Position numbers and translations under genes: made by a program. The notes below the pieces were generated by a model that had not been told where the DNA came from, searched no databases, and saw only the letters and a list, made by a program, of their open reading frames with translations. From assembly GCA_945861245.1 (NCBI GenBank), contig CAMAUE010000004.1:20294-84293 (forward strand): a DNA stretch of 64,000 nt, written 5' to 3'. This document shows, piece after piece, positions 10,995 to 25,979 of this stretch. The DNA is from Singulisphaera sp. GP187 (lineage in GTDB: Bacteria > Planctomycetota > Planctomycetia > Gemmatales > Gemmataceae). The first letter of the stretch is position 1; each line of letters begins with the position of its first letter.

Positions 10995-11096
10995 TCATTT
11001 TCATTTCCAAAACCTTGTAGGCGAGCCTCGATCTGGTTTACAATTACATTGGGGCTGATCCGCTCGCCTGGAGAACCGATTGGGGGGACCAATGTC

Positions 11097-11993
11097 ATGA
11101 AGGAAGCAGCCACACTCGTCGAATACGGCGTGGAAATTGACGCACGGACGATGATTGAGCCGCCGGACCCGACGAAATTGGAGTTGGAACCGGGCCATCC
11201 GGGCGAGCTTGACGTCGCGTATGTTCAGCGGCGCAAGGCGTTGTTCGAGCAATGTCGGCAGCAGCGGTTGGCCGGGCATGAACCGCCGTTGCTCGCCTAC
11301 AACGCCGAGGAGACGCGCATCTGGCAGGATGTTAGCAGCAAGCTCCATGCGCTGCACGATCTGCATGCCTGCGCGATCTATCTGCAGGGCAAGGGGGCAC
11401 TCGGCATCAGCGAGAACGAGATTCCGCAATTGCAAACGATCAGCAGACAACTCAAAACCGCCAACAACATGCACCTGGTTCCCGCCGAAGGGCCGATCGC
11501 GTATCGCACTTTTTACTCGTACATTGCCAAGCGAGGCTTCCCGGTAACGCAGTTCATTCGGCACGGTTCGCACCCTGAGTTCACGCCGGAACCGGACATG
11601 ATCCACGATTGTCTCGGCCACGTGCCGGCGCTCATGAATCCGGACTACGCGGAGGTGCTGACATTGATCGCCCGCGCGGCCAATGCCACGCCCGACCCTC
11701 GCCAGGTGCTGGCGCTGAAGCGGTTCAGTTGGTTCAGCATCGAGTTCGGCCTGATCGAAGAAGCGGATAGCGTCAAGGTTTTCGGGGCCGGTATTCTCTC
11801 GTCCACGGGCGAGATTCCCTTCGCACTCTATTCGAGCAAAGTTATCCGCAGGCCGTTCGTGACCGATGAAGTGATCGCGACCGACTACGACCCCTCGCGC
11901 ATGCAAGACCACCTGTTCGTGATCCCGTCGCTGCCATTTTTACGTAGCGAGATCGAGAGCCTGGTGCGGCGATTTGGGATAAGTATGGTATAA
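11097..11993 (+). CDS. phhA: aromatic amino acid hydroxylase (phenylalanine 4-monooxygenase, biopterin-dependent)
   Basis: Conserved FIRHGSHPEFTPEPDMIHDCLGHVPALMNPDYAE (iron-binding His pair) and FSWFSIEFGLIEE...KVFGAGILSSTGEIPFAL. Confidence 0.85.
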   Translation: MKEAATLVEYGVEIDARTMIEPPDPTKLELEPGHPGELDVAYVQRRKALFEQCRQQRLAGHEPPLLAYNAEETRIWQDVSSKLHALHDLHACAIYLQGKGALGISENEIPQLQTISRQLKTANNMHLVPAEGPIAYRTFYSYIAKRGFPVTQFIRHGSHPEFTPEPDMIHDCLGHVPALMNPDYAEVLTLIARAANATPDPRQVLALKRFSWFSIEFGLIEEADSVKVFGAGILSSTGEIPFALYSSKVIRRPFVTDEVIATDYDPSRMQDHLFVIPSLPFLRSEIESLVRRFGISMV

Positions 11994-12777: not shown

Positions 12778-13887
12778 ATGACCACCAAAGACACCCTCCC
12801 GCTTCGCCGAATCGACCACGTTCGCCTCTTCGTGGGTAACGCTCGGCAGTCGGCGTATTTCTATCGCAACGCCTTCGGGTTCGACGTCGTCGCCTATGCC
12901 GGCCTGGAGACGCGGCAGAAGCACGAATCGGGCTACGTCCTTCGCCAGGGGCATATCACCTTCGTACTCGTCTCCGCACTTTCCTGGCGGCATCCCGATT
13001 CGCAACGCCTCATCCAGCACGGCGACGGCGTGCAAGACATCGCGCTCGATGTCGAAGATGTCGCCTACTCCTTCAACGAAGCCGTTCGTCGTGGCGCCGA
13101 GGCCGTCTCGCCGCCGCAGGCGCTCGAAGACGAGTTCGGCGTCTACGAGTACGCCACCATCCGCACCTATGGCGATACGACGCACACCTTCGTCAATCGC
13201 GATCGCTACAAGGGCGTCTTCTCGCCGGGCTTCAAACCGATCGACCCGGAACGCTATCAGTCATCCACTTTTCATCCAGTCGGCTTGAAGGCGATCGATC
13301 ATATCGTCGGCAATGTCGAAGAAGGCAAGATGAACGACTGGGTCAAGTTCTACCAGGACGTGCTCGGCTTCCATCAGCTTGTTCATTTCGATGACAAGGA
13401 CATCGCCACCGAATACTCCGCTCTGATGTCGAAGGTCGTCGAGAACGGCACGGGGCGCATCAAGTTCCCGATCAACGAACCCGCGAAGGCCAAACGCCGA
13501 TCGCAGATTGACGAGTTTCTCCAGTTCTACGGCGGCCCGGGCGTGCAACATATCGCGATGGCGACCGACAACATCATCGACACCGTTGTCGCCATGCGAA
13601 AGAACGACGTATCGTTTCTGCGTGTTCCAAAGAGCTATTATGACATGCTGCCATCGCGGGTCGGAGCGATCAAGGAGGATATGAACACGCTGGCGGAACT
13701 CGGCATCCTGGTGGACCGCGATGACGAAGGGTACATGCTGCAAATCTTCACGAAGCCCGTCGCCGATCGCCCGACCCTGTTCTTCGAGGTGATCCAACGC
13801 CGTGGTGCGCGAAGCTTCGGTAAAGGAAACTTCAAGGCGCTCTTCGAGGCCATCGAACGCGAGCAAGAAGCACGCGGCACACTGTAG
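12778..13887 (+). CDS. hppD: 4-hydroxyphenylpyruvate dioxygenase
   Basis: Two vicinal-oxygen-chelate halves (LPLRRIDHVRLFVGNARQSAYFYRNAFGFDVVAYAG; GLKAIDHIVGNVEEGKMNDWVKFYQDVLGF) and the C-terminal GYMLQIFTKPVADRPTLFFEVIQRRGARSFGKGNFKALFEAIEREQ. Confidence 0.95.
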   Translation: MTTKDTLPLRRIDHVRLFVGNARQSAYFYRNAFGFDVVAYAGLETRQKHESGYVLRQGHITFVLVSALSWRHPDSQRLIQHGDGVQDIALDVEDVAYSFNEAVRRGAEAVSPPQALEDEFGVYEYATIRTYGDTTHTFVNRDRYKGVFSPGFKPIDPERYQSSTFHPVGLKAIDHIVGNVEEGKMNDWVKFYQDVLGFHQLVHFDDKDIATEYSALMSKVVENGTGRIKFPINEPAKAKRRSQIDEFLQFYGGPGVQHIAMATDNIIDTVVAMRKNDVSFLRVPKSYYDMLPSRVGAIKEDMNTLAELGILVDRDDEGYMLQIFTKPVADRPTLFFEVIQRRGARSFGKGNFKALFEAIEREQEARGTL

Positions 13888-17826: not shown

Positions 17827-19524
17827 CTATGGGGCGTGGATGCGAATCTCTTCCTCGACGGTGATCGTGTCGCGGAATTTGGGGTCGGGGATTAGGCAGG
17901 GGTGTTTGTACTGCTCGGCGGCGCCGCCGTTTCTGGCGAGGCGCTGGCGGTCCCATTGCTGCCAGGCGTGGGTCGGGATGACGAAGAGCCGCATCGGGCC
18001 AAGGCGTTGGCTATCACGTTTGCTGGCGTACTCGATGTTGACACGCGCGAGGGCATGCTCGAGAGCTTGCGTGAGCTTGGCGCCGTCGTCGCGCGAGGCG
18101 ATGTCGCCGCGTTCGACGAATAGGCCGTAGTAGGGCATCTCATCGTCCCAGCACGGGGCGACGCTGTAGGAGGTGAGGTTCAAGTTGAGGTTGCGCAGCA
18201 CTTCGGTCATCGCGCCGGTGATCTGGTATTCCGAAACCTTCTCGCCGGTGATGTTCGCGAAATGGGCGCCTTTGCTCAGAAACTCAAGAAGCGGCGTCTT
18301 GTTGAAGAAGCCGGTGCAGCGGACGACGTCGAAAATGTTGTAACGGTAGAGGCCGTAGTCGGTCGTGAGCAGGATGTAATAGGTTCGGCCTTCTTGCAGT
18401 TCGTGGGCGGCGAGGACGGTCGGGTTGGGGCTTGAGCCTTCTTCTTCGGGGATGAACTCGAAGACGTGCGAAGTGATGTCGAGAACGCCGCTGGGCGTGC
18501 CATCGCCGACGGGGATGGTCATGCGACCTTCGCTGGCGATGAGGCCGACGTCGCGGACGGGCGTGGAGCCGTAGTATTTGGGATAATGGCGGAGGTAAGC
18601 GCCGACGCTGCCGCCCATCCAGTTGCCGATCAAACAGTCCGTCGGCCAATAGTCTTTTGGATAAAGCGTGCCGGTTTGGCGCACGATCTCTTCGAGTTGG
18701 CGGGCGCGGTCAGGGTTGGCCTTGGCGATCCGACTCTGGACGGCGGCGCGGATTTCGGGTGCGATGTCGAACTTTGTCGAGAGCGTACCGTCGTGGATGT
18801 CGCGGATCAGCGTTTCCTTTTCCTGATCGCCGCCGCGGGCCATGTTGACGAGTGTGCTCGGGTTGGCGGCGATAATCATGCCGACTTTTCGTGGCACGCT
18901 CAGGCGCAGTGCGAGGTAGTTCTTCGCCGCTGCGTCTTTGATCGTGCCGACGATCGCGGGAACGCAATAGATTCGGCGGATGATCCACATTTGCATCTGG
19001 GCAGTGAGCCCAGTGACGGCGCCGCACGGGACGCCGGCATCGGTGTGAAATTCCTGCCAATCGCCGGAGAGTTGCACGATCGGCCTCAGGCGGACTTCGG
19101 GGTGATCGCGATAGACCTTGAGGCCCCAGATGTTCCAACCACGCTTGTAGTCGGCGAGGTACTGGTCGGTGACGGGGATGAACTTGCGTGTCGCCGTCGT
19201 GCCGCTGGTCATGGCGAACATGTGGATTTTCGCGTCGGCGAGGAGGGCGTTGGTCTCGCCCTGGATGACGCGTTTCATGTACGGTTCGACATAGTCATAC
19301 CCGCGCACGGGGATGGTATTGCGAAAATCGTCGAGAGTGAGCATCGAGGAGAAGCGATGGTCCTTGCCGAAGGCTGTACCAGCGTGATGGCGAAGGATGC
19401 GTTGGAGCAGGGCTGCCTGCGTAGCGACGGGATCATGCGTGGCGGCCTCGAAGGCGGCGAGGCGGCGGCGGATGGGTATCGCAGCGATTTTGACAATCAG
19501 ATTTCGAAGGAGCCAATTGAGCAT
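17827..19524 (-). CDS. GH3 (auxin-responsive promoter) family acyl-adenylating enzyme
   Basis: MLNWLLRNLIVKIAAIPIRRRLAAFE..., KIHMFAMTSGTTATRKFIPVT, GRTYYILLTTDYGLYRYNIFDVVRCTGF, GEKVSEYQITGAM. Confidence 0.85.
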   Translation of the reverse strand: MLNWLLRNLIVKIAAIPIRRRLAAFEAATHDPVATQAALLQRILRHHAGTAFGKDHRFSSMLTLDDFRNTIPVRGYDYVEPYMKRVIQGETNALLADAKIHMFAMTSGTTATRKFIPVTDQYLADYKRGWNIWGLKVYRDHPEVRLRPIVQLSGDWQEFHTDAGVPCGAVTGLTAQMQMWIIRRIYCVPAIVGTIKDAAAKNYLALRLSVPRKVGMIIAANPSTLVNMARGGDQEKETLIRDIHDGTLSTKFDIAPEIRAAVQSRIAKANPDRARQLEEIVRQTGTLYPKDYWPTDCLIGNWMGGSVGAYLRHYPKYYGSTPVRDVGLIASEGRMTIPVGDGTPSGVLDITSHVFEFIPEEEGSSPNPTVLAAHELQEGRTYYILLTTDYGLYRYNIFDVVRCTGFFNKTPLLEFLSKGAHFANITGEKVSEYQITGAMTEVLRNLNLNLTSYSVAPCWDDEMPYYGLFVERGDIASRDDGAKLTQALEHALARVNIEYASKRDSQRLGPMRLFVIPTHAWQQWDRQRLARNGGAAEQYKHPCLIPDPKFRDTITVEEEIRIHAP

Positions 19525-19542
19525 GAATGGTGATCCTGCAAC

Positions 19543-19814
19543 CAAGCCCAGGGGTGAGGTACTCCAAACCCCATAGGCACCAACTTAAGGAATCAGTGTC
19601 AGAAAAACGCAGACTAACCACAGAGGCACAGAGGACACAGAGAAAATGCGCGGAATAATGACTTGGAATTCTTACGATTCTGCGTGCCTTCTTCTTCTCC
19701 CATTCTTCGTATTTTCTAAGTGTCCTCTGTGCCTCTGTGGTTCAAATTTGATTGCCTGGCCTGAGTTCCCTAAGTTGATGCCTATGGGGTTTGGAGTACC
19801 TCATCCCTGGGCTT
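19543..19814. repeat. nested long inverted repeat, 272 bp
   Basis: Outer arms AAGCCCAGGGGTGAGGTACTCCAAACCCCATAGGCACCAACTTAAGGAA (19543-19592) and TTCCCTAAGTTGATGCCTATGGGGTTTGGAGTACCTCATCCCTGGGCTT (19766-19814); inner arms AACCACAGAGGCACAGAGGACAC / GTGTCCTCTGTGCCTCTGTGGTT. Confidence 0.9.
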
Positions 19815-19851: not shown

Positions 19852-20814
19852 CTAAACGGCGCCTGTCAGATGTTTATCAAAAAACTCAAGCACCCGGCGT
19901 TTGTATTCATCGGCGGCGAGATGAATCGCCTGGTTGTGTTTGGCCTTTTCGACGAGCCAAAATTCCTTTGGGTCTTTCGCCAAGGCAAAGAGCTTTTTGG
20001 CCATATCGGGTTTGATATAGTTGTCGCCGCCGCCGTGAATCATTAACAGCGGCCTTGGGCAAAGCTTCCGCATAAACGGTTCCAGGTTTACGTACTTACA
20101 CCCGCGTTCGCGTTCGACTCGCCGAATTACCAGCCGCAGCACGTGTCGAAGGTACCAGGTTGGAATATATCGGATGGCAAACGGAATCTTGGTGTAGATC
20201 ATCACGAACTGATACATGTAGGGCACGACGGTAGTGTCGACAGCGAAGACGCCATCGACGACACAGCAGCGAATGAACTCATCGCCCGCCGCAGCTATGA
20301 GTCCGGCGCTGCCGCCTTTGCTCAGGCCGAACAGCCCTACACCAGGCTCGCCTTTATCCGGCCTCGTTTTTAGATACGCCAAAGCGGTCTGATAGTCGGT
20401 GATTTCAAACTCAGTGACCCATTGCAACGGTTGGTAGCCGTCCTTGGCGACACTTGAACCTTGGCCACGCGGCTCGAAGGTGAAGATGTCATAGCCCGCC
20501 TCGAGCAGAAACTCCGTGTACGGCCCACACGACCATTTCGTTGAGCCGAACTCTAGCCCGAACATTATCACACCCTTGCGTGGTTGCTTGGTGTGCAGGT
20601 AACAGGCGTTGAGTTTCAAACCATCTGGCGTGGTCAGCGTGATCTCCTCGGCGTCCGGAATCGGCTTGCCGAATGGGACCATGAAGAGAGGCTTCTCCTG
20701 AAAGATACGCATCACGACGCTGAGGTAATTTCGCCGCACGTGCATGTGGAAAGTTAGCAGCGCAATTACAGGAATCGCTGATAGGACGGCCAAACTGATC
20801 CAAAGCCATTCCAC
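19852..20814 (-). CDS. alpha/beta hydrolase
   Basis: GxSxG-like nucleophile elbow VGLFGLSKGGSAGL, RPLLMIHGGGDNYIKPDMAKKLF, FTFEPRGQGSS. Confidence 0.85.
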   Translation of the reverse strand: MEWLWISLAVLSAIPVIALLTFHMHVRRNYLSVVMRIFQEKPLFMVPFGKPIPDAEEITLTTPDGLKLNACYLHTKQPRKGVIMFGLEFGSTKWSCGPYTEFLLEAGYDIFTFEPRGQGSSVAKDGYQPLQWVTEFEITDYQTALAYLKTRPDKGEPGVGLFGLSKGGSAGLIAAAGDEFIRCCVVDGVFAVDTTVVPYMYQFVMIYTKIPFAIRYIPTWYLRHVLRLVIRRVERERGCKYVNLEPFMRKLCPRPLLMIHGGGDNYIKPDMAKKLFALAKDPKEFWLVEKAKHNQAIHLAADEYKRRVLEFFDKHLTGAV

Positions 20815-20907: not shown

Positions 20908-22200
20908 CTATTCGATGAATCGACTGACCACGAGCGAAACGTTCTGGCCACCGAACCCGAAGCTATTGCTGAGCACGTGATCGACTTTTTTCTCGCGGGC
21001 CACGTTGGGCACATAATCGAGATCGCATTCGGGATCGGGCGTTTCGTAGTTGATCGTCGGCACTAACACGCCGCGCAATATCGTCATTACCGACGTAATT
21101 AACTCGACCGCGCCAGCCGCGGCGATCAGGTGGCCAAGCATGCTCTTGCTGCTGCTTACGGGAACCTTGTACGCCTGTGGTCCGAATACCGTCTTGATGC
21201 CGAGAGTTTCGACGCGATCATTGACCTGCGTACTCGTGCCATGCGCGTTGATGTAGCCGATGGCTTCCGGCGTCAGTCGCGCGTCATCCAGCGATCCTTG
21301 AATGCAGGCGATGGCGCCGCGTCCGTTGGGATGGCTGTCAGTCAAACGGAAGGCGTCGCAGGTTGAACCGTAACCCGACATCTCGGCGTAGATACGCGCA
21401 CCGCGTTTTTTGGCGTGTTCGAGTTCTTCGAGGATAACTATGCCGGCGCCTTCGCCGATGACGAAACCGGATCGATTCAAATCGAACGGTTTCGACGCTT
21501 TCCGCGGATGTCGGTTTTCCGTGCAAAGCGCAGTAAGCAGGTTGAATCCGGTGATACCGAAAGGATGGATCATGCTATGCGATCCGCCCGAAACCATGAT
21601 GTCGGCCTCGCCGTGACGGATCATCTCGGTCGCTTCGCCGATCGCCTGACTGCTGGCGGCGCAGGCGGTGAGGCAGTTGTAGTTCGGCCCTTCGAGATCG
21701 AAATAATCGGCCAAATGGCCGGGCGTCGTGTGCATCTCTTGTTCGTATTCGTGGGCGGCGGTGAAACGGTTGATGCCGCGGCGGATGAACTCGCTCGGAT
21801 CGACCGTCATCGTTTCAGGGACATAGGCAGCGGACATCAACTCGGTCATGATCGACCAATCCTGGATGCCTTCGCCGGAACCGAGATATACGCCGAAACG
21901 CGTGCGATCGACTTTCATGTTGTCGAGTAAGCCAGCGTCCGAAATCGCTTGTTGAGTGGCCGCAGCTGCGAAGCGTGCATTTGGTCCAGCGTTCTGCCAG
22001 CGACTGGGATCCTTCACAAACGCTCCCAGGTCGAATCCTTTCAACTCCGAGGCAAACTTCGTCGGAAACGTGCCGGCGTCGAAGTGTTTGATGAAATCCA
22101 CTCCGCTCTGGCCCGCGACCTGGTTCTCGTAGAGTTCCTTGACGCTATAGCCCAACGGCGTCACAGCACCCATTCCAGTTATCACGACGCGTTTTCTCAT
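20908..22200 (-). CDS. beta-ketoacyl-ACP synthase (KS-alpha type, complete C-H-H triad)
   Basis: MRKRVVITGMGAVTPLG; CLTACAASSQAIGEA (Cys), INAHGTSTQVND (His), SSKSMLGHLIAAAG (His), SNSFGFGGQN. Confidence 0.93.
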   Translation of the reverse strand: MRKRVVITGMGAVTPLGYSVKELYENQVAGQSGVDFIKHFDAGTFPTKFASELKGFDLGAFVKDPSRWQNAGPNARFAAAATQQAISDAGLLDNMKVDRTRFGVYLGSGEGIQDWSIMTELMSAAYVPETMTVDPSEFIRRGINRFTAAHEYEQEMHTTPGHLADYFDLEGPNYNCLTACAASSQAIGEATEMIRHGEADIMVSGGSHSMIHPFGITGFNLLTALCTENRHPRKASKPFDLNRSGFVIGEGAGIVILEELEHAKKRGARIYAEMSGYGSTCDAFRLTDSHPNGRGAIACIQGSLDDARLTPEAIGYINAHGTSTQVNDRVETLGIKTVFGPQAYKVPVSSSKSMLGHLIAAAGAVELITSVMTILRGVLVPTINYETPDPECDLDYVPNVAREKKVDHVLSNSFGFGGQNVSLVVSRFIE

Positions 22201-22264
22201 GATCTCATGCACCTCGACCGTTTAGATCGCGCTCGCCAAAGGCGATCGGCTAAACAAATTAGGA

Positions 22265-23536
22265 TCACCACTTTCGGCAAACGACGGCGGCGCATTGGCC
22301 CATGTCGGTGAAGCCGATCTTGATGAAATACGGTTTCGCAATTGGCCTCGCCTCGGACGTAACATTCACCGGGCAGGCGGGGTCGGGCTCAGCGAAGTTG
22401 AGCGTGCCGGGCAGCACCCCATGTTTCATCGCGAGCAGGCTGCCTGCCAACTCGGCGACGCCGGAACCGGCGCTGAGATGACCGAAGTTCGGTTTGATCG
22501 ACCAGACGGTCGTGCCCATGCCGAAGATTTCGTTGATGGCGAGGGCCTCGAAAGCGTCAAGTTTGATCGAGCCAAGGCCATGGGCATTGACATGATCGAT
22601 GTCCGCCGGCGAGACCTTCGCCTGGGCCAGGGCGATGCGCATTGCGCGAGCCAGTCCCTTGCCGGTCAGCCCGCGATCGAATGCCGAGCCAAACCCCATG
22701 ACTTCGGCGTAAATATGGGCGCCGCGGCGTTGGGCGTGTTCGAGTTCCTCGACGACGACGACACCGCTGCCTTCGGCGAGGGCCAGACCATTGCGTCGGC
22801 GATCAAACGGTTTCACTGCCGTGCCGGGAGAGTCATTGTCGCGTGACAGCTGTCCGAACAGGGTCTGACGAACCATGCTCATAGGCGTGATCTTGCTATC
22901 GGCGCCGCCGGCGAGCATGAAGTCGGCCTGGTTGCGTTCGATAATGCGCACCGATTCGCCCAGCGCGAGCAGACTGGCGACTTCGCTTTCGGTGATTGAA
23001 TTGTTCGGGCCTTGCGCGTTGTGCAGAATCGCGACATGGCACGCCAACATGTTCGGCAAATACTTGAGCATCCAGAGCGGGGGAATGCTGCCGATGCCTT
23101 TTTCGCCCCAGACGCGCGGGTCGGTCGGGTGGGCGTTCGCCTCGGTGCTGATGTGCGACGCCGGGCCGAGTTCGTCGAGTTCCGACGGGATAAGCCCAGC
23201 GCCATACTCGACGCCGAACCGCGTGGGATCCAGTTTTTGCTTGTCGACTTTAGATTCGGCGATTGCGATATTAGCTGCGGCGACAGCGAACTGAATCGTG
23301 CGTGACATGACACGAATCTGTTTGCGCTCTTCCTTACCGACGAGGTATTTTTTGACGTCGAAATTGAGAACTTCGCCGGCAAAATGCGTAGACAGGGGTG
23401 ATGGGTCAAATGCCTGAATTCGTCGGATCCCGGTCTGCCCTTCGGACAAGGCGGTCCAGAACGAAGCGGCGTCGAGTCCAATTGGAGACACGACGCCAAT
23501 ACCGGTCAGCACAACGCGACGGTTCGCAACAGACAT
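22265..23536 (-). CDS. beta-ketoacyl synthase homologue lacking the catalytic Cys (chain-length-factor / KS-beta-like)
   Basis: MSVANRRVVLTGIGVVSPIGLDAASFW; active-site stretch reads GPNNSITESEVASLLALGES in place of TACAASSQA; the two His are kept (VNAHGLGS, KPNFGHLSAG). Confidence 0.88.
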   Translation of the reverse strand: MSVANRRVVLTGIGVVSPIGLDAASFWTALSEGQTGIRRIQAFDPSPLSTHFAGEVLNFDVKKYLVGKEERKQIRVMSRTIQFAVAAANIAIAESKVDKQKLDPTRFGVEYGAGLIPSELDELGPASHISTEANAHPTDPRVWGEKGIGSIPPLWMLKYLPNMLACHVAILHNAQGPNNSITESEVASLLALGESVRIIERNQADFMLAGGADSKITPMSMVRQTLFGQLSRDNDSPGTAVKPFDRRRNGLALAEGSGVVVVEELEHAQRRGAHIYAEVMGFGSAFDRGLTGKGLARAMRIALAQAKVSPADIDHVNAHGLGSIKLDAFEALAINEIFGMGTTVWSIKPNFGHLSAGSGVAELAGSLLAMKHGVLPGTLNFAEPDPACPVNVTSEARPIAKPYFIKIGFTDMGQCAAVVCRKW

Positions 23537-23600
23537 GGCACACCCAAACAACAGATTCCGAGCCGTCGGCTCTTCGGTGAGGATCGATCGCTCGATCCAT

Positions 23601-24122
23601 TTAGGTTGCGCTGTCCGTGCGCTGGGCCGCTACCTTGGCCAGGCCCAACAGATGTTTCAGTTCGCCACTGAACACGAAGTTGAGGTCGCCGAACAACTGC
23701 TGGGATCGCGACTTATCCAGATGAGCGAAAAATATCTCTGCTTCCGCCATTGGCGGATTCGCCGGCTCGCCGATACTTTGGCCCGGCGCCAGCGTGTACA
23801 CTTTACCGACGATCGATGCGCCTTCAGGCCGAAGCGTCACGATCTCGGTGTCGTAGAGCAGCGTCTCGCCGGCCAACGCCTCGCGATGAAACTTCGCGGA
23901 GGTGATCTTGGCGAGGACGACTTTTTCCTTGAAGTCGTTAGCCTCACCGACGAGAATTCCGCCGGTTTGGGCGAGCCCTTCAAGGATAAAGCAGGCCGGC
24001 ATGATCGGATAGCCGGGCAGGTGCTGCTGAAAGTAATCCTCAGCCAGGCTTAGTTTCTTGACTGCGCGTGCCGATTTGCCTCGCTCGAACTTGACAAATC
24101 GGTCGATCCAAATCCAACGCAT
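23601..24122 (-). CDS. FabZ-like 3-hydroxyacyl-ACP dehydratase
   Basis: Hot-dog motif QHLPGYPIMPACFILEGLAQTGG with His and Glu catalytic positions present. Confidence 0.85.
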   Translation of the reverse strand: MRWIWIDRFVKFERGKSARAVKKLSLAEDYFQQHLPGYPIMPACFILEGLAQTGGILVGEANDFKEKVVLAKITSAKFHREALAGETLLYDTEIVTLRPEGASIVGKVYTLAPGQSIGEPANPPMAEAEIFFAHLDKSRSQQLFGDLNFVFSGELKHLLGLAKVAAQRTDSAT

Positions 24123-24225: not shown

Positions 24226-24621
24226 TTACGCCTTCGAGCCAAGTTTGCCTTCGATGTACTTCGCAATCATATCGACCGTGAAGAGGTCGCTAATCGCCGT
24301 CATATCGGGGTTCCGCTCGAACTTGCCGATGTCGGCGAACGGCATTTTTTCACGCAGCTCTTTCAAGCCCTTCTCCGTCACTTTGCCATTCAGGACGAAC
24401 TCCGGGTCGCCCTGGAAGATCGATTCGGGGAACAGCTCGTTGCGGGGAATCTTGATGCCGAATTCGCGCTCGAGGCGGAAGACGATGTCGAGGAAATCGA
24501 TCGATTCCGCGCCGAGGTCGCCCTGCAACGTCGAGGTGGGTTGAATTTCATCATGATCCACGTTCAATGCTTCAACGAGCGTGGCAGATACTTTCTTGAA
24601 AATCTCGGCTTGAGTCGGCAT
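24226..24621 (-). CDS. acyl carrier protein (long, 131 aa)
   Basis: EIFKKVSATLVEALNVDHDEIQPTSTLQGDLGAESIDFLDIVFRLEREFGIKI with phosphopantetheine Ser in GAES-I. Confidence 0.9.
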   Translation of the reverse strand: MPTQAEIFKKVSATLVEALNVDHDEIQPTSTLQGDLGAESIDFLDIVFRLEREFGIKIPRNELFPESIFQGDPEFVLNGKVTEKGLKELREKMPFADIGKFERNPDMTAISDLFTVDMIAKYIEGKLGSKA

Positions 24622-24703: not shown

Positions 24704-25462
24704 TTACATCGCCACGGCACCGAGGCTCAGCCCGCCATCGACTTTGATGATCTGGCCGGTAATATATCCCGAATCCGCGCTGGCGAGAAAGACGGCGACT
24801 TTTGCAATGTCCTCGGCCTGACCGAGCCGTTTCATCGGGATCATTTTCTTGATCAGGTCGCCCGCTTTATTGCGAATATTTTCCGTCATGTCGGTTTCAA
24901 TGAATCCCGGCGCAATTGCGTTGACGGTCACGCCGCGACCAGCCAACTCAACCGCCAAGGCACGCGTGAACGAATTCACGGCTCCCTTGCTGGCTGCGTA
25001 GTTCGTTTGACCCGGATTCGAGTTATCGGCGGCGACGCTCGAAATATTGATGATCCGGCCCTTGCGTTGCCTGGCCAACTTCATCGCCACGGCGTGACAG
25101 AAGTTGAACACGCCGCCCAAATTCGTTTGGATGACGGTGTTCCATTCTTCCAGCTTCATGCCAACGAACAGCCCGTCGCGGATCACGCCGGCATTATTCA
25201 GCAGGATGTTGACCAGCCCGAGATCCTTTTCAATCGCTTCGACGACTTTTTCCGCATCGTCGAAATTCGTGACATCACACTGAAACGCTTTGGCGATTCC
25301 GCCCGCCTGCGCAACCTCCGCAACCAGGCTGTCCGCAGCGGCCTGATTGCCTTTGTAAATGAACGCAACTTTAGCGCCCTCAGCTGCGAAGGCTTTGACG
25401 ATGCCCCGCCCGATGCCTCGGCTCCCGCCGGTCACGATTGCAACTTGATCCTTCAATCGCAT
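24704..25462 (-). CDS. 3-oxoacyl-ACP reductase (FabG-like SDR)
   Basis: MRLKDQVAIVTGGSRGIGRGIV, NNAG, NISSVAADNSNPGQTNYAASKGAV, NAIAPGFIETDM. Confidence 0.92.
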   Translation of the reverse strand: MRLKDQVAIVTGGSRGIGRGIVKAFAAEGAKVAFIYKGNQAAADSLVAEVAQAGGIAKAFQCDVTNFDDAEKVVEAIEKDLGLVNILLNNAGVIRDGLFVGMKLEEWNTVIQTNLGGVFNFCHAVAMKLARQRKGRIINISSVAADNSNPGQTNYAASKGAVNSFTRALAVELAGRGVTVNAIAPGFIETDMTENIRNKAGDLIKKMIPMKRLGQAEDIAKVAVFLASADSGYITGQIIKVDGGLSLGAVAM

Positions 25463-25484
25463 GTTCGTTCGTCCCTTATGAGTT

Positions 25485-25979
25485 TCACGATTGTCCGAAA
25501 TCCAATTCGCCTCGCAACACACGATAGTGGCTGCGCAGATCGGCGATTATCTTGTCATCCACACTTTGCAGCGTGGGATTGCGATCTCTGAGGTTGTAGC
25601 GCCCTACCGTGAACTTTGCCGACACGGTGGAACTCCCGTCCATCTCGGCTTTGCCTTTGAAGACGGCGAGCGGGTTTTCCGGGCTATAGTCAGCGACCTC
25701 GACAGTGATCGTCATGCTGTTGCCCGGCTGCATGAAGTTGCCATACTTCACGTTGCGAGCGTCACGTAACACGATCACGCTGTACTTGAAGTCTTCCAAC
25801 GCCCGAAGCAACCAGGCGGAACCTTCGACCAGCGTTTGCAACATCAACACGCCCGGCATCACCGGGAAAGTTGGAAAGTGGTCCGCGAGGTACTCTTCCG
25901 CCAGGGTGAGGTTCTTCACCATGCGAATCCGTTTGCCTGGCTCCAAGTCCAGGATGCGATCAATAAGATGGAAACGCAT
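25485..25979 (-). CDS. FabZ/hot-dog dehydratase-like protein with Gln at the usual catalytic Glu position
   Basis: MRFHLIDRILDLEPGKRIRMVKNLTLAEEYLADHFPTFPVMPGVLMLQTLVEGSAW; His kept, Glu of LxxE replaced by Gln. Confidence 0.85.
   Translation of the reverse strand: MRFHLIDRILDLEPGKRIRMVKNLTLAEEYLADHFPTFPVMPGVLMLQTLVEGSAWLLRALEDFKYSVIVLRDARNVKYGNFMQPGNSMTITVEVADYSPENPLAVFKGKAEMDGSSTVSAKFTVGRYNLRDRNPTLQSVDDKIIADLRSHYRVLRGELDFGQS

Follow-up and report, generated by a model that had tools for sequence, protein, structure and literature searches.

We propose that KS2, a FabF-like ketosynthase (KS) homologue without the catalytic Cys, forms a heterodimer with its neighbour KS1 in a dedicated type II system and serves there as the non-condensing subunit, comparable to a chain-length factor (CLF). 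From the sequence evidence, we assign this reading a probability of roughly 0.68. The gene is located on the reverse strand at 22265..23551 of the window, i.e. the whole 64,000-nucleotide stretch of Singulisphaera sp. GP187 DNA analysed here. It lies directly upstream of KS1 (20908..22212, reverse strand), which was assigned by its open reading frame, NCBIfam and alignment as a ketosynthase with an intact Cys184-His324-His361 triad. A preliminary description of the region had regarded KS2 as a CLF-like subunit. The non-condensing partner remains the best reading, given the absence of Cys, the loss in most family members of the gating loop and the second His, and the 43 loci in which KS2 adjoins KS1, but membership in the CLF clade does not hold.

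KS2 was assigned from its open reading frame and from domain and structure matches. The frame is intact and encodes 428 residues from a TTG start. The span 22265-23536 given earlier is correct for the version that starts at the alternative ATG at 23536 (423 residues), and the TTG start extends it to 23551. Both the N- and C-terminal ketoacyl-synt domains of Pfam are matched, and the NCBIfam fabF model gives 311 bits, under its cut-off of 493.75. The closest solved structures are FabF enzymes (T. thermophilus 1J3N, E 2e-65), and the predicted KS2 model (mean pLDDT 86) yields TM-scores of ~0.86-0.89 against FabF structures. Confidence is low only at residues 115-158, a stretch that includes the partner-facing motif described below. 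In this model, the acidic residue that replaces Cys is placed at the start of the helix 184-200 (423-residue numbering), which is the nucleophile site of FabF.

In the gap-free BLASTP alignment of the two proteins (32% identity), Cys184 of KS1 (codon TGC, 21661-21663) faces Glu190 of KS2 (codon GAA, 22982..22984, reverse strand). The assignment of Glu to this position is therefore retained, while the Ser with a one-residue gap, initially considered in its place, is ruled out. We compiled 55 KS2 orthologues from planctomycete genomes, comprising 59 relatives and other classes of the phylum, with partial sampling outside the class. The Cys column is occupied by Asp in 32 of them, Glu in 22 and Asn in one, while all 49 KS1 proteins carry Cys. 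Thus the proposed loss of the nucleophile is confirmed for the family as a whole, no orthologue having Cys at this site, and a local mutation of a normal Cys-bearing gene in this genome is ruled out by the acid in 54/55 orthologues. Glu had been thought an unusual variant; an acidic residue is in fact the rule. An alternative Cys nucleophile elsewhere in KS2 is also ruled out, since no Cys is invariant among the 55 orthologues, the best being C171 (49/55).

The remainder of the active site is less well preserved. The KS2 of this window does hold both His residues (His324 and His358), as was noted at the outset, but this is not a property of the family: the first His is found in 44/55 orthologues, with replacements including Thr, Val and Phe in the other 11, and the second in 11/55 only, Asn being present in 29/55. 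The catalytic Lys is present in 50/55. In the GFGG gating loop, most KS2 proteins no longer have the Phe, which KS1 retains, and the combination of a Cys-His-His triad with a GFGG loop that characterizes FabF is not found in the KS2 family. To count the changes, we used a KS2 tree built with the site columns left out. The acid column has changed at least 12 times, with just one change leaving Asp/Glu, whereas the second-His column has changed at least 18 times and shows nine different residues. Since the former stays acidic while the latter drifts, the negative charge itself, and not the mere absence of Cys, appears to be under selection.

Such conservation could also mean that KS2 is catalytic, in which case the carboxylate, together with His324 and the Asn or His in the second position, would either decarboxylate malonyl-ACP in a KSQ-like manner to prime the chain or provide acid-base catalysis for an intermediate. 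The near-invariance of the acid despite repeated switching between Asp and Glu, the retention of the first His and Lys in most orthologues, and the prevalent Asn, which gives a Cys-His-Asn-like set with an acid for Cys, are all in accord with this possibility, as is the absence of a FabH-like starter enzyme from the operon in domain-model searches. However, known decarboxylating KSQ domains have Gln at the Cys position and require both His residues, while KS2 has Asp or Glu and the second His is mostly gone. The variability at that second position, the loss of the first His in a fifth of the orthologues and the loss of the gating loop further weaken the proposal, and we consider it unlikely, though the best of the alternatives. 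A structural or electrostatic role of the acid is favoured over a catalytic one because the remaining catalytic set drifts. In the proposed heterodimer, the Asp/Glu would occupy the dead pocket of KS2 itself and place a permanent negative charge where the nucleophile helix begins, with His324/Lys353 as its probable partners. Nevertheless, the first His and the Lys are retained more often than a purely structural subunit would need, which counts against the KS1:KS2 reading.

Evidence for the pairing comes from the gene arrangement and from the putative interface. In 43 loci, drawn from several planctomycete families and classes, KS2 immediately precedes KS1 in the same orientation, and the two genes stay together in two genomes (G112 and G136) where the ACP-DH section of the operon has been relocated. 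KS2 also contains the motif PLWMLKYLPNM (23048..23080, reverse strand), with the family form PLW[ML]L[KR]YLPNM, which aligns with residues 131-141 of E. coli FabF near the dimer interface; W160 and K/R163 are each conserved in 54/55 orthologues. In the alignment, W160 takes the position of FabF Phe133, a residue that extends toward the acyl pocket of the partner subunit. KS1 has the motif EYEQE (21736..21750, reverse strand), in which E155, E157 and E159 are conserved in 49/49, 45/49 and 48/49 proteins, respectively, and which is aligned with MLKYL of KS2. The two motifs, EYEQE and MLK[YH]L, share the columns corresponding to FabF 134-138 and are of opposite charge, with E157 against K/R163. 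Opposite charges in one column of adjacent paralogues would suit a heterodimer, in which the dimer face of KS2, including Trp160, might shape the acyl pocket of KS1. In the FabF dimer, α4 and α5 of one subunit pack against α8 of its partner, which is also contacted by residues from ~140 onward (PMC5206705).

It is also conceivable, though less probable than a catalytic KS2, that the protein is a scaffolding or regulatory pseudoenzyme that forms homodimers or associates with other proteins, such as the Cys-bearing KS on contig C93 of the same genome, and is not an obligate partner of KS1. In three families (f4, f6 and f8), KS2 is located elsewhere in the genome, away from KS1, with the acid still kept, and this arrangement counts against the KS1:KS2 reading as well. 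The separate loci are L049, L052, L054, L059, L061, L062, L087, L088 and L090, and one genome, G052, holds three KS2 copies. Moreover, the PLW...LPNM motif is shared with the C93 KS, which belongs to the same lineage, so that the motif alone is not specific for a heterodimer. The adjacency to KS1 in 43 loci, which survives the displacement of the ACP-DH part, and the complementary charged motif of KS1 argue against this explanation. As for a decaying duplicate retained by linkage alone, the faster evolution of KS2 (mean column entropy of 1.73 vs 1.21 bits for KS1) is outweighed by pairwise dN/dS values of 0.04-0.16, which place KS2 under purifying selection, by open frames in 59/59 relatives searched, by the conserved acid, and by the reported essentiality of the entire group of five KS paralogues in Planctopirus limnophila (PMC10632474), a group-level result that is not tied to the KS2 locus, so this reading is strongly disfavoured.

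The phylogenetic tree was constructed from 78 KSs by a quick method with SH-aLRT as the sole support measure and actinobacterial CLFs as the outgroup. KS2 forms one clade (support 99) inside a group (97) whose other members include the C93 KS, which has Cys, and the KS encoded first in the operon of family f19. KS1 forms another clade (96), sister (96) to the KS encoded second in f19. The actinobacterial CLFs make up their own clade (100) far from KS2, ruling out KS2 as a member of that clade. Because KS2 groups with Cys-bearing planctomycete KSs, its resemblance to CLFs is convergent, and the CLF-like state evolved independently, probably after duplication of a Cys-bearing ancestor. The f19 genomes (L073-L076) have the same operon with Cys in both KSs and a DH1 without its whole His loop; they provide a naturally occurring intermediate on the way to a Cys-less KS2 and allow a before-and-after comparison of how an enzyme turns into a non-catalytic partner. 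A scan of genome contigs outside the phylum with a few peptide patterns yielded no hits other than KSs with Cys or unrelated proteins of CLF-like type. The C93 KS itself (L067, G000:C93, 8679-9986) is a standalone gene, with no other fatty acid genes recognized nearby.

Comparison with known systems places KS2 close to, but apart from, the described KS-CLF pairs. As in the actinorhodin-type KS-CLF of actinobacteria (1TQY), the two KSs are adjacent, one member is devoid of Cys, and a dedicated ACP is present. KS2 thus shares with CLFs a KS fold without the nucleophile and a gene position beside an intact KS and near an ACP; it has neither Gln at the Cys position nor a place in the CLF clade. 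The four actinobacterial CLFs sampled have Gln (three) or His (one) at this position, in comparison with Asp/Glu in the KS2 family, and the present operon differs further in having a ketoreductase (KR) and two dehydratases and in placing KS2 before KS1. In the aryl polyene ApeO-ApeC and ishigamide Iga11-Iga12 systems, a KS and a non-catalytic homologue are likewise accompanied by a KR, paired dehydratases and their own ACP. However, ApeC is devoid of most of the second thiolase domain (PMC8358021) while KS2 is full length, and unlike highly reducing type II PKSs, the operon has a single ACP where those have two, carries GH3 and hydrolase genes downstream, and has no known polyene product. An aryl polyene cluster is ruled out by the single ACP, the full-length KS2 and the absence of a starter-acid ligase among the operon genes. 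The cispentacin pair AmcF-AmcG, a proven heterodimer, also combines a KS with a divergent homologue without functional motifs and has FabZ-like and ACP neighbours, but AmcG is a shortened cyclisation factor for a single C2 extension (PMC10698177), from which KS2 differs. A 2023 catalogue records numerous cases outside actinobacteria in which two FAS-like KSs are paired, and suggests that the CLF definition may need widening (PMC10132072).

The replacement of Cys by Asp or Glu is itself already known. Rattray et al. reported in 2009 that two FabF paralogues of Rhodopirellula baltica, RB3714 (Asp163) and RB4527 (Glu163), have no Cys163, and His298, Leu300, Lys328 and Asn333 of RB4527 resemble many of the KS2 proteins described here (PMC2649909). 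Those paralogues surfaced in a study of ladderane lipids, and the part of that study concerned with them mentions neither a partner KS nor an operon, and neither conservation across the phylum nor a CLF-like role (PMC2649909). The divergent FabFs of Kuenenia have Val, Phe or Ser at the Cys position (PMC2649909), and we found no positive link to anammox ladderanes. New in the present analysis are the retention of the acid across the phylum, the operon, the dehydratase pairing and the interface motifs of KS1 and KS2.

The operon is read on the reverse strand from 25979 down to 17827 in the order DH2-KR-ACP-DH1-KS2-KS1-alpha/beta hydrolase-GH3. This order is conserved across Planctomycetia, with KR absent in some members, and the core is also found in other planctomycete classes. 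The ACP (24226..24621, reverse strand) is a dedicated carrier protein of 131 residues with a conserved LGAESIDFLDIVFRLE around Ser, and the KR (24704..25522, reverse strand) is a FabG-like 3-oxoacyl-ACP reductase by Pfam, NCBIfam and operon context. A housekeeping set is encoded separately on contig C192, where an ACP above the curated cut-off stands beside an ordinary Cys-bearing FabF. In the proposed system, all condensations would be carried out by KS1 on the operon's own ACP, and the β-carbon would be processed by the KR and a heterodimeric DH1:DH2 dehydratase. In family f9, two loci (L097 and L098) have a DH2-ACP-DH1 module with no recognizable KS1 or KS2 nearby.

Two FabZ-like proteins lie on either side of the ACP and KR (DEHYDRATASES). 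These FabA/FabZ-like dehydratases, DH1 (23601..24122, reverse strand) and DH2 (25485..25979, reverse strand), have decayed in a complementary manner. Across 32 pairs, DH1 keeps the Glu in 32/32 genomes and the His in 23/32, nine having lost it, while DH2 keeps the His in 32/32 and the Glu in 27/32, five having lost it, with Gln in the window. The FabZ active site is shared between subunits, one supplying His and the other Glu. Such a pattern is what would be expected of a heterodimer with one working site, and it predicts that DH1:DH2 is an obligate heterodimer with a single active site, in parallel to KS1:KS2. This prediction is clean and cheaply testable.

The last two genes are presumably concerned with the fate of the acyl chain. 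The alpha/beta hydrolase (19852..20814, reverse strand; Pfam) is an operon member across the class, and the gene at 17827..19545 (reverse strand; Pfam, NCBIfam, operon) encodes a GH3-family adenylating amide synthetase, a distant paralogue of OlsH and the sole GH3 found in this genome. In Singulisphaera acidiphila, OlsH (GH3) and OlsI (alpha/beta hydrolase) make an ornithine lipid, again with a GH3-family ligase and an alpha/beta hydrolase in one planctomycete operon, although that operon is described with OlsG and without KS, DH or ACP genes (PMC12493201). Because of this pathway and the paralogy of the GH3 proteins, we regard an aminolipid of the N-acyl amino acid type as the most likely product: the hydrolase and GH3 would release the acyl chain and then couple it to an amine, yielding a membrane lipid. 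The analogy is weakened by the 21-25% identity between the GH3 and OlsH, and by the hydrolase, considered as a possible OlsI, which gave no convincing match to the open reading frames in OlsH neighbourhoods. The GH3 is not OlsH, as it scores 106.4 bits on the OlsH model NF052613 against a cut-off of 620; OlsH itself exceeds the cut-off in 23/59 relatives and is absent from this genome.

These results indicate at least one further origin of the KS-CLF arrangement, from FabF-like stock outside Actinobacteria, and place it here in a planctomycete core gene set rather than a sporadic antibiotic cluster. As all five KS paralogues of P. limnophila are reported to be essential, the operon product may be needed for life. 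We tentatively suggest, as a possibility well below even odds, that the operon encodes a core and probably essential planctomycete type II lipid synthase, in which KS1:KS2 and DH1:DH2 are pseudo-symmetric with one active site each, the carboxylate has a positive role, either catalytic or electrostatic, and the product is a novel membrane aminolipid.

Two observations on other genes were also made. In several relatives, a DUF1571 gene is located directly downstream of GH3 (L064:3309-4736 and L060:3581-5101, both on the reverse strand), and its product is possibly a lipid carrier or an envelope protein. Elsewhere in the window, a biopterin-dependent aromatic amino acid hydroxylase and a glyoxalase/HPPD-like protein are encoded side by side on the forward strand (11049-11993 and 12778-13887), a pair that suggests tyrosine/homogentisate metabolism.
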